From assembly GCA_031271975.1 (NCBI GenBank), contig JAISUR010000014.1, positions 1 through 63,418 on the forward strand: a stretch of DNA of 63,418 nt, in the 5' to 3' direction. Of the stretch, positions 3,939 through 55,132 are shown piece after piece. This DNA comes from Propionibacteriaceae bacterium. GTDB lineage: Bacteria; Actinomycetota; Actinomycetes; Propionibacteriales; Propionibacteriaceae. Numbering within the stretch: the stretch's first letter is position 1; the number at the start of each line of letters is the position of its first letter. The position numbers and the translations under genes are program-made. The notes under the pieces are model-generated. The model did not search any database. It saw only the letters and a list, made by a program, of their open reading frames with translations, and was not told the origin of the DNA.

Positions 3939-4733
3939 TCACACCGCTATCGGGGCCTTGATGCCGGGATGCGGATCGTAGCCCACCACCTCGATGTCGG
4001 CCAAGGTGAACTGGTCGATCTCGCGCACATCGGGATTGAGCACCAGCTTCGGCAAGGGGCGCGGATCCCGGGACAACTGGAGCTTGGCTTGCTCGACATG
4101 GTTGTTGTAGAGATGCGTATCGCCCAGCACATGCACGAAATCGCCCACGCCCAAACCCGCGACTTGCGCGATCAAGTGTGTCAGCAGGGCGTAGGAAGCG
4201 ATGTTGAACGGGACGCCCAAGAAGATGTCCGCCGAGCGCTGGTACAGCTGGCAGCTCAGCTTGTCCCCAGCCACATAGAACTGGAAGAAAGCGTGGCACG
4301 GCGGCAACGCCATCTGCGGAAGCTGGGCGACGTTCCACGCCGAGACGATGTGCCGGCGGGAATCCGGGTTGGTCTTGACGGACTCGATCACAGCCTTGAT
4401 CTGATCCACGTGGCCGCCGTCCGGCGTGGGCCAAGAACGCCACTGATACCCGTAGATAGGGCCCAGCTCGCCGTCCGGGCCGGCCCACTCGTCCCAGATC
4501 GTGATGTTGTTCTCGTGCAGCCAAGCGACATTCGTCGAACCGCGCAGGAACCACAGCAGTTCGCCGAAGACGGAACGCGTGTGCAGCTTCTTCGTCGTCA
4601 GCAGCGGGAAACCGGCGTTCAGATCGAAGCGCATTTGGTAGCCGAAGACAGAGCGCGTGCCCGTGCCCGTCCGGTCCGACTTCGGCGTACCGTTGGCCAG
4701 CACGTGGTCCAAGAGGTCCAAGTATTGCTTCAT
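3939..4733 (-). CDS. thyA: Thymidylate synthase
   Basis: Folate-dependent methylation of dUMP to dTMP. The 264-residue length equals that of E. coli ThyA. Visible motifs are [20 protein letters not shown], the catalytic-cysteine motif [10 protein letters not shown], and [27 protein letters not shown], which includes the dUMP-binding Arg/Ser/Asp residues. The ATG overlaps the TGA of rdgB (ATGA, 4730-4733). Its Shine-Dalgarno sequence (GGGAGG) lies inside the last codons of rdgB. That part of rdgB is derived from or adjacent to a REP-like element. Translation of thyA is therefore likely coupled to rdgB. Confidence 0.97.
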
Positions 4734-5476
4734 AGGGAGCCTCCCTCTGGTTCGGGCTTCCCCAGCCCGTCATGCCGGGCTGGGTTCGGCAGCTCCGGAA
4801 GCAGTCCGGCTGGCTGGGGTGTGGAAACGGACTGCGTCCGAGATCCCGGAACGAGTCCGGGATGACGGTTGGGTAGCATGACTGACTGCAGGATAGGCAG
4901 GAGCGCCGCCGCCGCTTTGGCACGGTGCGAAATGGCGTCCTTTTCAGCCGGCGACAGCTCCGCGTTCGTGCGGCCGTCCGCCTCGTCGGCGACGAAAATC
5001 GGGTCGTAGCCGAAGCCGTTGCCCCCGCGCGGTTCCAGGACGAGCTTGCCCTCCATCGCGGCGCGCACCACGTGTTCTTGGCCGGACGGCGTCACCAGCG
5101 CCATCGCGCACACGAAACGGGCCGCGCGGTCGGCGTATTCGGTGTCGGAAAGCTGGGCGATCAGCAGCCGCAGGTTGGCCTCGTCGCCAGCCCCCGGCCC
5201 CGCCCAGCGGGCCGAACGGACGCCGGGCATGTTGTTCAGCAGGTCAACTTCCAAGCCGGAGTCGTCGGCGATCGCCACCTCACCGGTGGCCTGGGCCGCG
5301 GCGCGGGCTTTGATCAGCGCGTTCCCCGCAAAGGTGCGCTCCGTTTCGGCGGGCTCCGGATACGGCGCGACCTCGTCCAACCCGACCACCTTCGCATCCA
5401 AGCCCGCGCGGTCGAAAATGCGCTGCATTTCCACGCCCTTCTTGGCGTTGTGCGTAGCCAGAACGATGCGGATCAC
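4730..5476 (-). CDS. rdgB: XTP/dITP pyrophosphatase (HAM1/RdgB) with REP-derived C-terminal tail
   Basis: House-cleaning nucleotide pyrophosphatase that removes dITP, XTP and related non-canonical triphosphates. The GTG start overlaps the rph stop as GTGA. N-terminal [38 protein letters not shown] and [11 protein letters not shown] are the family signatures. [14 protein letters not shown] near residue 180 marks the normal end of the domain. The protein then runs about 50 residues further than family members. This tail contains [13 protein letters not shown] and is encoded by the REP-like repeat pair at 4761-4868. The extension probably arose when the repeat replaced the original stop codon. 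The tail is unlikely to be needed for catalysis. Confidence 0.92.
4761..4868. repeat. Inverted pair of REP-like palindromes inside the rdgB 3' end
   Basis: Two copies of the window's REP-like unit lie head to head. The right copy (about 4828-4868) reads CGGACTGCGTCCG, GAGAT, CCCGGAACGAGTCCGGG, ATGACGG, i.e. two hairpins and a conserved tail. The left copy (about 4761-4812) is a degraded reverse complement starting CCCGTCATGCCGGG. Pairs of this kind resemble BIME arrangements in other bacteria. The pair is translated as the C-terminal tail of RdgB. Related units are at 7901, 19961, 24244, 34691 and 54001. Confidence 0.75.
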
Positions 5477-7900: not shown

Positions 7901-7984
7901 TGGGACTACGTCCCAAGATGCCGGAACAAGTCCGGCATGACGGAGTGGGGAATGATGGAACAAGGCCGGCATGACGGAGTGGGG
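7901..7984. repeat. REP-like palindromes, tandem copies
   Basis: One full unit (GGACTACGTCCC, AAGATGCCGGAACAAGTCCGG, CATGACGGAGTGGGG in succession) is followed directly by a second, truncated copy of its right half (ATGATGGAACAAGGCCGGCA, TGACGGAGTGGGG). The last bases (GGAGTGGGG) lie 8 bp before the ATG of the following lipoprotein gene and could serve as its ribosome site. Confidence 0.75.
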
Positions 7985-19960: not shown

Positions 19961-20002
19961 CGGACTGCGTCCGGAGATGCCGGAACGAGTCCGGCATGAC
20001 GA
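19961..20002. repeat. REP-like palindrome
   Basis: A single full unit: CGGACTGCGTCCG, GAGATG, CCGGAACGAGTCCGG, CATGACG. It lies in the 208-bp divergent gap between the FTR1 operon and pncB. Both hairpins are intact. No gene is disrupted. Confidence 0.75.
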
Positions 20003-24243: not shown

Positions 24244-24335
24244 GTCCGGACTTCGTCCGAGATCCCGGACCCTACCCCACAAAGTTCTTCGATACTTTGC
24301 GGGGACCCCGGAACAAGTCCGGGATGACCGCTGGG
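24244..24335. repeat. REP-like palindrome interrupted by a second hairpin
   Basis: The left half is GTCCGGACTTCGTCCGAGAT plus CCCGGA. The right half is CCCGGAACAAGTCCGGG plus ATGACCG. Between them about 40 bp has been inserted. The insert contains its own stem, CCCCACAAAGT paired with ACTTTGCGGGG around TCTTCGAT. A related CCCCACAGAGTTCT stretch lies near 34657, beside another REP half-site. Confidence 0.7.
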
Positions 24336-52774: not shown

Positions 52775-55132
52775 ATGATCCGCAGACGTATCGAACTGCG
52801 CGGGGTGGTGCAGGGTGTGGGATTCCGGCCGCACGTCGCCCGCGTGGCCACCCGGTTCGCGGTCACAGGCTTTTGCGGAAACGACGACGAGCGCGTCTTC
52901 ATAGAGGTGCAGGGCGAGCCGGACGAGGTTGCCGCGTTCGCAGCGGCTGTGGTTGCCGAAGCCCCGCCCCTGGCCCGCATCATCGATTCGCGGGCCGCCG
53001 ATTTGCCGCCCATCGCCGAGACCGGCTTCCGGATAACCGCCTCGCGACGCGCGCCCGGCGCGGTCACGCTGATCTCTCCCGACATCGCCACCTGCGGCGA
53101 CTGCCTGCGCGAAATGAACGACCCAGCCGACCGCCGCTACCGCTACCCGTTCATCAACTGCACCAACTGCGGCCCCAGGCTCTCGATCATCCAAGACGTG
53201 CCCTACGACCGCCCGCTGACGACGATGTCCGCTTTCGCGATGTGCCCCGCCTGCCGCGCCGAATACGAAAACCCGGAAGACCGCCGCTACCATGCCCAGC
53301 CAATAAGCTGCTGGGATTGCGGCCCGACCATCTGGCTGGAAGCACCACCAGGAGCAGACCGCCAACCCGCCGACGCTCACCTCGCCGCCGCCCGCCAACT
53401 CATCTCCCAAGGCAAGCTCGTGGCCGTCAAAGGCATCGGCGGCTTCACCCTGATGTGCGACGCCCGCAACCCGGAAGCCGTCGCCCGCCTGCGCGAACGC
53501 AAACGCCGCCCGGCCAAACCGCTCGCGGTGATGGCCGGTTCCCTGCGGGCGGCCCAGCAGATCGCCGACGTGGACGCCGGCCTGCTCACCGACCCGGCAG
53601 CCCCGATCGTGTTAGCCCCGATGGCCGCGGGCTACGACCTGGCCCCCCAGGTGGCCCCCGGCCTCGACGACGTCGGCGTGATGCTGCCCTACGCGCCCGT
53701 CCACCACTTGCTGCTGGGCCCCGACGACGTCTGGGTGGCGACATCGGCCAATTCGTCATCGCTGCCCCTGACGTACACGAACGCGGATGCCCGCCGCGAC
53801 CTCGCCTTCGCGGACGCGCTATTGATGAACGACCGCGACATCCATGTGCCCGTGGAGGATTCGGTGCTGCTGGGCGAGATCCCGATCCGGCGTTCCCGCG
53901 GCTACGCCCCGCTCCCCGTCCCGCTCGCCAATCCCACCTCCTCCGGCGCCAATCCCACCTCCTCCGGCGCCGAACCCAACGCCATCCGCACCCCCCAACC
54001 CGTCATCCCGGACTTGTTCCGGGATCTCGGACGAAGTCCGACACCGGGCGGACAAGCGATCCTCGCCGTGGGCGGAGAGTTGAAGAACACGTTTGCCCTG
54101 GTCCGGGACAGCATGGCGTTCTTGTCCGCGCACATCGGCGACATGGGCTCCCTGGAAACCCAGGCCGCATTCGAGCGGTCGGTGGCCCAACTGTTGACAA
54201 CGCACCGCCGCGCCCCCGAACTCGTCGTGGTGGACAAGCACCCCGGCTATGCGACCAGCGCTTGGGGACGCCGCTATGCCTCCCGGACGGGCGCCCGGCT
54301 CCTGGAAGTGCAACACCACCACGCGCACGCCCTCAGCCTGCTCGCGGAATCTGCCGGGACGCACGTGCGGACATTCTTGGTCGTGGACGGTACCGGCTAC
54401 GGCGACGACGCCACGATTTGGGGTGGCGAACTGCTGTGCCTCGGCCCCGATCCGCTCACCTATGAGCGCGTCTGGCACCTGCCCGGCTTCTGGTTGCCGG
54501 GTGGCGATTCGGCGATTCGGCACCCCTGGAAATGCGCCTTGGCGCTGCTGGGCGAGTACGGCATCGATCCGGTTGGGCTGCCCCCGGCCGACGCTCCCGC
54601 TGACGAGGTGCGCTTGGTCCGCTCGCAACTCGCTGGCGGCGTCGGCATCGTCCGCACGTCGTCAGCCGGGCGGTTGTTCGACGCAGTCGCCAGCTTGTTG
54701 GGCATTTGCCACACCGTGCGCTACGAAGCGCAGGCGGCGATGGAGTTAGAAACGTTGGCGCGCAACTGCCCGCACGAGCCAATACGAGCCCAAGTGGGAG
54801 ACGCCGAGCCGGTCGCCGAGCTGACCGCGCTCCTCGTCGCCGGTGTCCGGGCCGGAACGTCGACCTGCTGCCTGGCGCGCGCCTTTCAACGCGGCTTCGC
54901 CCAGCTTTGCGCCGACGCCATCGCCAGGCACACCCGCGCGGGGCACCGGGTCGGAATCACCGGCGGTGTGGCCTGCAACCGGCTGTTGGCAAGCGACTTG
55001 GCGGCGATTCTGGAAGACCGGGGATACTCACCATTACTCCATCGCATCGTTCCACCCAATGACGGGGGGCTAGCCTTAGGCCAGGCATTGGCCGGATATT
55101 TGACGCTGGCCCGAGGAACGGAACCGACATGA
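52775..55132 (+). CDS. hypF: HypF carbamoyltransferase with REP-derived insert
   Basis: Makes thiocarbamate for the CN ligands of [NiFe]-hydrogenase. 785 residues with acylphosphatase (1-90), zinc fingers (CGDC, CTNC, CPAC, CWDC), YrdC-like and Kae1-like domains (QHHHAHALSLLAE metal site). Residues about 386-425 are abnormal: two tandem NPTSSGA units, then a REP-encoded VIPDLFRDLGRS. They lie between RRSRGYAPLPVPL and ILAVGGELKNTFAL, where relatives have a linker of about 10 residues. The frame is kept. ATG 52775 is used; a TTG lies at 52766. It overlaps hypE by ATGA. Confidence 0.95.
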   Translation: MIRRRIELRGVVQGVGFRPHVARVATRFAVTGFCGNDDERVFIEVQGEPDEVAAFAAAVVAEAPPLARIIDSRAADLPPIAETGFRITASRRAPGAVTLISPDIATCGDCLREMNDPADRRYRYPFINCTNCGPRLSIIQDVPYDRPLTTMSAFAMCPACRAEYENPEDRRYHAQPISCWDCGPTIWLEAPPGADRQPADAHLAAARQLISQGKLVAVKGIGGFTLMCDARNPEAVARLRERKRRPAKPLAVMAGSLRAAQQIADVDAGLLTDPAAPIVLAPMAAGYDLAPQVAPGLDDVGVMLPYAPVHHLLLGPDDVWVATSANSSSLPLTYTNADARRDLAFADALLMNDRDIHVPVEDSVLLGEIPIRRSRGYAPLPVPLANPTSSGANPTSSGAEPNAIRTPQPVIPDLFRDLGRSPTPGGQAILAVGGELKNTFALVRDSMAFLSAHIGDMGSLETQAAFERSVAQLLTTHRRAPELVVVDKHPGYATSAWGRRYASRTGARLLEVQHHHAHALSLLAESAGTHVRTFLVVDGTGYGDDATIWGGELLCLGPDPLTYERVWHLPGFWLPGGDSAIRHPWKCALALLGEYGIDPVGLPPADAPADEVRLVRSQLAGGVGIVRTSSAGRLFDAVASLLGICHTVRYEAQAAMELETLARNCPHEPIRAQVGDAEPVAELTALLVAGVRAGTSTCCLARAFQRGFAQLCADAIARHTRAGHRVGITGGVACNRLLASDLAAILEDRGYSPLLHRIVPPNDGGLALGQALAGYLTLARGTEPT
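53930..53971 (+). repeat. Two tandem 21-bp units inside hypF
   Basis: The 21-bp unit starting AATCCCACCTCCTCCGGCGC plus C occurs twice without a gap (53930-53950 and 53951-53971), encoding NPTSSGA twice. It is a perfect duplication directly upstream of the REP unit at 54001. Confidence 0.85.
54001..54043. repeat. REP-like palindrome inside the hypF coding sequence
   Basis: CGTCATCCCGGACTTGTTCC, GGGATCTCGGACGAAGTCCG, ACA is the reverse orientation of the intergenic units, with both hairpins intact. It is read in frame as VIPDLFRDLGRS. Its junctions with the tandem 21-bp units suggest insertion by recombination at a GC-rich linker. Confidence 0.85.

Follow-up and report, generated by a model that had tools for sequence, protein, structure and literature searches.

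CGTC REPs, as described by Di Nocera et al. in 2013 (PMC3733652), carry an unpaired CGTC (or TGTC, CCTC) at one end of a stem of 8 or 9 bp with A-T pairs at the first and second positions, and the stem closes on a loop of 4 or 5 nucleotides. A short tail fits CCA in most, not all, elements, and the elements occur predominantly as head-to-head dimers, given there as a tendency and not as a definition. That description includes in-frame insertions in genes, with DnaE2 among the listed targets, and reports different REPs at about the same recB site in Xanthomonas campestris and X. oryzae. Since RepRanger (PMC12306157) gives REP counts for Actinomycetota, REPs are not new in that phylum. The name hypF has no occurrence in the main text of PMC3733652 (Additional file 3 aside), and our literature search returned no report on the repeat described here or on HypF inserts of this sort.

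We analyzed a stretch of 63,418 nucleotides from a Propionibacteriaceae bacterium, hereafter the window, in which a REP copy is read in frame as part of HypF. The preliminary description of this DNA likened the case to Rickettsia palindromic elements (RPE), aptly so, as PMC3733652 equates RPE-4 and RPE-6 of Rickettsia conorii with CGTC REPs and describes in-frame insertions. We consider it highly probable that a CGTC-type REP multiplied in this genome and inserted in hypF where the YrdC-like and Kae1-like domains join, and that HypF is tolerant of it.

Results

The hypF gene and its neighborhood

The hypF frame is open and stop-free over 788 codons, and Pfam places its domains in the usual order (Acylphosphatase, residues 8-90; zf-HYPF; YrdC, 212-368; HypF_C, 430-528; HypF_C_2, 538-773). 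The protein passes the NCBIfam model TIGR00143 (hypF) with 640.8 bits against a cut-off of 466.1. Of 184 alignment columns with a conservation of 90% or more across 45 other HypFs, it matches 182, the exceptions being residues 355 and 708. A coding signal is present on both sides of the REP copy, and genes of the HypA, HypB, HypC, HypD and HypE families surround hypF, HypB being recognized by Pfam as cobW and the HypE-like gene by its AIRS domains. These features argue against hypF being a decaying pseudogene or the insert an artefact of assembly, as does the recurrence of REP insertions in HypFs of independent assemblies. The genome is, however, a draft of 49 contigs, and an exact tandem duplication beside a high-copy repeat is where assemblers err, such that the 21-bp duplication described below could be an assembly product. 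The reading frame is nonetheless intact in the assembly, with none of the frameshift at the site that the preliminary description had allowed for, and we regard decay or artefact as very improbable.

The part of the window from 40377 to 63418 holds hyp maturation genes, yet no hydrogenase was found among the genes scanned: hydrogenase large-subunit motifs are absent from the 39 genes called with a start in the first 40 kb, and a Pfam scan of 10 genes after 40 kb returned no hydrogenase. The client enzyme of the hyp genes must be encoded elsewhere or among the unscanned genes.

A composite insert in the interdomain linker

Protein alignments and linker lengths define an in-frame insert of 38 residues (Table 1), in keeping with the extra segment of about 35-40 residues first proposed between the YrdC-like and Kae1-like domains. 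It lies between the end of YrdC (residue 368) and the start of the Kae1-like part (residue 430). The distance from RRSRGxAP to GGELKNTF is 53 residues in this HypF; among the 74 measurable loci of 80 named HypF loci fetched, it is 15 in 59, 16-21 in 11, and 31, 44, 49 and 52 once each. By sequence, about 5 residues separate the two aligned blocks in the solved HypF 3vth. Alignment with close relatives, suggested at the outset as a check for a clean insertion, bears it out: the linker is short in the nearest ones (18 residues in G029 and 19 in G023). An empty-site alignment at the DNA level misplaced the insert and was set aside in favor of the protein alignments; the nearest HypFs are ~70% identical, so the time of insertion is not closely datable.

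Table 1 Features of hypF, its insert and the other REP copies in the window
Feature	Position	Strand	Basis
REP copy within a Ham1-family gene (4733-5476, -), predicted C-terminal tail	4842..4865	-	Pattern search, gene calls, Pfam
REP copy, intergenic	7917..7940	-	Pattern search, gene calls
REP copy, intergenic	19976..19999	-	Pattern search, gene calls
REP copy, intergenic	24304..24327	-	Pattern search, gene calls
hypF, host gene of the insert, 788 codons	52766..55129	+	ORF, Pfam, TIGR00143, fold match 3vth_A
Exact 21-bp tandem duplication (NPTSSGA twice), not REP-like	53926..53967	+	Repeat search, genome search, flank alignments
In-frame insert of 38 residues (390-427), YrdC/Kae1 linker	53933..54046	+	Protein alignments, linker lengths, pLDDT <50 at 394-419
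C-rich leader (CCGCACCCCCCAACC), partly common to other copies	53985..54000	+	blastn extents, local alignments
49-nt core identical to genomic copy G000:C32:8146-8194	53992..54040	+	blastn
CGTC tag and first REP hairpin (8-bp stem, 5-nt loop)	54001..54026	+	Sequence, genome and window copies, copy statistics
Second small hairpin of the element, CGGAC-GAA-GTCCG	54028..54040	+	Sequence; present in 48 of 80 sampled copies

The insert is composite, its 3' half being one REP copy and its 5' half the 21-bp duplication with a spacer, such that the REP accounts for only about half of it. In the REP half, the tag CGTC (54001-54004) is followed by the stem ATCCCGGA/TCCGGGAT around the loop CTTGT (54005-54025). 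Stem and loop are exact, and the palindrome is thus intact at the nucleotide level, as had been stated. A general inverted-repeat search did not list it, its 8-bp stem being shorter than the search minimum of 12 nt. The copy translates as VIPDLFRDLGRS. A known RNA family was considered for the palindrome and rejected, as a search of 53700-54300 against Rfam gave nothing at E 0.1.

The two 21-bp units (53926-53946 and 53947-53967) are identical, and the duplication has no further occurrence in the genome with up to three mismatches. Membership of the NPTSSGA duplication in the REP was rejected: when 53926-53985 was aligned with the 90-nt flanks of the 79 other copies, the top local score was 22, against 25-26 for the controls, which were reversed flanks and pieces of other intergenic and of coding DNA. 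Because the flank scores do not exceed the controls, the blastn extensions into the duplication part are not taken as homology; in the upstream part, only the leader just before the tag is shared with other copies. The preliminary description placed a REP next to a 21-bp tandem duplication; the duplication and the palindrome are both exact, but the duplication does not look like part of the REP.

Predicted fold and proposed course of events

An AlphaFold model computed from 46 sequences has a mean pLDDT of 87.7 and a pTM of 0.89, and matches the solved HypF 3vth_A with a TM-score of 0.87. The only segment below pLDDT 50, residues 394-419, belongs to the insert, and a weak helix is modeled at 415-422. 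The model supports an intact HypF fold in which the insert would form a disordered loop; the position between YrdC and HypF_C, together with the disorder that AlphaFold leaves there, agrees with the interdomain linker first assigned.

We propose that a CGTC-type REP multiplied in the genome and then entered hypF at the YrdC-like/Kae1-like junction. The gene would have stayed open because five of the six frames of the copy lack a stop and the added length as a whole is divisible by three. The REP peptide, beside the separately duplicated PTSSGAN segment, would form a disordered loop, and HypF most likely still folds and works because this loop would lie in a linker where length is not critical. 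Tolerance and intact function of HypF are what we infer from these data.

The REP family in the genome

The pattern TCATCCCGGACTTGWTCCGGGATC, with up to two mismatches, occurs 242 times in the 2.70-Mb genome (128 copies on the plus and 114 on the minus strand), and the reversed control pattern occurs 0 times. The window holds five copies, against a mean of 0.00 in 100 shuffles. Repetition of the palindrome is therefore not due to chance, and the claim that a dispersed repeat codes for part of HypF in frame holds, given these counts and the short linker of the relatives.

The survey of copy locations covered the window and 18 further stretches, each 20 kb long and set at round coordinates, for a total of 423,418 bases; these stretches came mostly from contigs known from earlier matches and are hence not strictly random. 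A custom codon-usage caller gave 391 genes in this sample, and a looser pattern gave 80 hairpins. Although 90.8% of the sample is coding, 74 of the 80 copies lie outside called genes. The six inside are in HypF (one), a LicD-family gene (three, the first of them right where the called gene begins, in a segment that shows no coding signal), the C-terminus of a lactonase (one) and the C-terminus of the Ham1-family protein (one). Extragenic copies lie in 27 convergent, 24 unidirectional and 22 divergent positions, with one at a stretch end; gaps of at least 60 nt in the sample comprise 21 convergent, 103 unidirectional and 49 divergent ones. In high copy number and mostly extragenic location, the family has the general properties of REPs.

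The tag is CGTC in 66 of the 80 copies, TGTC in 3 and another sequence in 11. The search pattern dictated the lengths of stem and loop; given these, the stem is paired throughout its eight positions in 70 copies, counting G-T as a pair, and matched C/G exchanges on both arms are seen, 29 copies having ATCCCGGA:TCCGGGAT and 20 having ATGCCGGA:TCCGGCAT. A second hairpin, in versions that include CGGAC/GTCCG, TGGGAC/GTCCCA and CGCAC/GTGCG, accompanies 48 of 80. Five frames are stop-free in 53 copies, four in 22, three in 4 and six in 1; the HypF copy has five. Single copies within 150 nt number 29, the HypF copy among them, and the 35 neighboring pairs comprise 20 in the same orientation, 11 in +- and 4 in -+ arrangement.

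The TCATCCCGGACTTGWTCCGGGATC pattern is present in 7 of 60 genomes, all of one genus: the window's own and G009 (67 copies), G018 (95), G021 (9), G005 (7), G012 (1) and G014 (1). Each of six HypF-carrying relatives (G006, G013, G017, G020, G023 and G029) has 0 copies. High copy number and absence in near relatives suggest that the REP has been mobile. A RAYT-type mover in the window's genome was rejected for want of any match to PF01797 (Y1_Tnp), the transposase domain that was also absent from G009, G011 and G019. It was found in 10 of the 36 genomes searched, including G007, G008 and G018; 5 of 14 control genomes matched.

Other genes that carry copies

In the Ham1-family gene, the final 45 or so residues of the predicted product come from the REP copy: the copy begins at 352, past the end of the Pfam domain at 342 of 396. 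A DnaE-like gene outside the sample (G000:C16:162001-165414) also contains a copy in frame, read in a different frame from that in HypF and with coding signal on both sides. The copy sits in a loop of variable length near the HHH_6 region, and this loop varies in relatives too. The product is probably a DnaE-like second polymerase subunit of the error-prone type, though at 565.6 bits it falls below the cut-off of 939 of the NCBIfam error-prone polymerase model. In the LicD-family gene (G000:C33, 1926-4295, plus strand), two inverted copies precede the LicD domain in frame, and coding signal flanks them on either side.

Palindromic repeats in HypF of other lineages

The preliminary description had set against an insertion any close relatives whose linker has the same length but an unrelated sequence. 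On the face of it G019, G007 and G008 are of this kind, with 44, 50 and 52 residues at the same linker, but these are built on CTTCGACAAGCTCAG palindromes of another abundant repeat (family B), and the nearest relatives have short linkers. Searched as CCTTCGACAAGCTCAGG with one mismatch, family B occurs in 15 of 36 genomes (152 copies in G007, 223 in G008, 31 in G019, 228 in G009 and 61 in G003) and 0 times in the window's genome; it also occupies HypF loops other than the YrdC/Kae1 linker. Family C, a GGTTGAGGAGCGGCGAAG repeat, lies in other HypF loops of G019 and G025; it is not numerous (18 copies in G019, where a control pattern gave 2), G025 being outside the genome count. CGTC hairpins of family D are found in the loop before RRSRG of the G011 HypF, with 237 copies in that genome, and those of family E in the Zn-finger/YrdC linker of a further HypF (L104), whose genome G060 holds 68 copies.

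The HypF tree places the window's gene in a group with L112, G029 and G023 (97/92), all three without such a repeat in the linker. L104 groups with G020 (98/95), which is without the repeat; G007, G008, G019 and G025 fall within a clade of six (100/99); and G011 stands alone (nearest fork 89/88). From this placement of the repeat-bearing HypFs it follows that, besides the insertion in the window, three other lineages were hit by palindromic repeats in HypF.

Among seven further HypF inserts checked, only those of L104 and L138 contain an inverted repeat of at least 7 bp, and HypF loops thus also gain non-palindromic sequence. In L138, a Chloroflexi HypF, an 11-bp inverted repeat (4156-4206) codes for DWRLAINEEIANRQSTI in the loop before RRSRG. 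The Zn-finger/YrdC linker of the G008 HypF (L041/L214) contains seven near-identical QLAEPVEAP units in a row. The arrangement there differs in the close relative G007, which points to fast turnover of HypF loops.

The sample of G008 comprised 16 stretches (320 kb, 286 called genes), one of them chosen for HypF, and 13 of its 40 elements lie inside five genes. A class I tRNA synthetase (L209, 11633-14875, minus strand) has two palindromic repeats between its catalytic domain and its anticodon-binding domain, and the match within an AMP-binding gene (L211) lies in a domain without extra length and may be due to chance. HypF itself holds six elements at three sites, in three loops, where the rates in the other sampled genes predict 0.0674 elements and 0.0385 sites. 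In this post hoc test of one genome, the Poisson tail is 1.2e-10 for elements and 9.2e-6 for sites. In 80 kb of G011, one of eight elements is in a gene, and that gene is HypF, in a stretch chosen for HypF.

This excess, and the presence of families B, D and E in HypF of three other lineages, in whose genomes they are abundant where counted, could mean that HypF is a preferred target, with hypF DNA, its transcription or relaxed constraint drawing several kinds of palindromic repeat repeatedly. We judge this possible but doubtful: HypF is long and has several loops, such that tolerance would produce a closely similar pattern, inserts are missing from several related HypFs, and five of the seven further inserts lack an inverted repeat of at least 7 bp.

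An insertion could instead be adaptive if the mRNA hairpin or a longer disordered linker altered co-translational folding, the amount of HypF or active-site coupling. The hypF hairpin is intact at the RNA level (-25.8 kcal/mol, z -2.08; 7 of 200 shuffles do equally well) and falls exactly where two domains meet, and unrelated repeats recur at the YrdC/Kae1 linker. The z-score is modest, however, the insert is missing from most relatives, the linker repeats differ in sequence and length, and the same REP is found in unrelated proteins in other frames, which leaves little credence for adaptation. Nor do we think it at all probable, though we give it a slightly better chance, that HypF linkers are a convergent hot spot, where separate lineages of Propionibacteriaceae and their kin load their own palindromic family into the same loops because an added disordered segment or mRNA hairpin at a domain joint changes the making of HypF or its active-site coupling. 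The best reading of the HypF cases is tolerated insertion into disordered linkers.

Discussion

A selfish-looking repeat has, on this reading, become part of a protein that matures metal enzymes. Repeated capture of different palindromes in HypF raises the interest of the finding: one gene with several loops and several unrelated repeat families offers a natural series, for which insert-free related HypFs serve as controls. One non-essential, assayable protein thereby allows a test of how such elements get into proteins and of whether linkers do no more than tolerate them. With this case, Propionibacteriaceae join the hosts of CGTC-type REPs that have copies inside genes, and the genomes with many REP copies and no PF01797 transposase gain one more member.

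Of the systems compared, GTAG REPs with RAYT transposases resemble the present family as small dispersed palindromes; the latter has no GTAG tag, and PF01797 is absent here and in G011, which among the other genomes has the most copies of a CGTC repeat. As in the recB gene of Xanthomonas (PMC3733652), where different REPs lie at about one gene site in two species, HypF has received more than one repeat, but several families are involved, at four or more gene sites and in four lineages. The RPE share with the HypF copy the property of palindromic repeats read in frame inside protein genes, and the element here is contained entirely in an open gene frame and is absent from relatives of that gene. 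In contrast to the RPE, only 6 of 80 sampled copies are in called genes, the target is HypF, and the host has a genome of free-living size and belongs to another phylum.

The likeness is greatest to the CGTC REP superfamily as set out in PMC3733652. Shared features are CGTC at one end, an 8-bp stem starting with AT and a 5-nt loop, all found in the HypF copy (ATCCCGGA-CTTGT-TCCGGGAT), together with high copy number, mostly intergenic location, some in-frame genic copies including DnaE2, and no dedicated transposase. The differences are that the HypF copy continues with CTCGGAC, compared with a CCA tail in most elements of the superfamily; that a second small hairpin is common in this genome; that close pairs are not predominantly inverted, unlike the head-to-head tendency described; and that the host belongs to Propionibacteriaceae (Actinomycetota), the word "Actinobacteria" being absent from the text of PMC3733652. 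By its sequence, the element of the window fits the type with an 8-bp stem and a 5-nt loop most closely. In-frame CGTC REPs have already been described (PMC3733652), and the HypF case adds to them.
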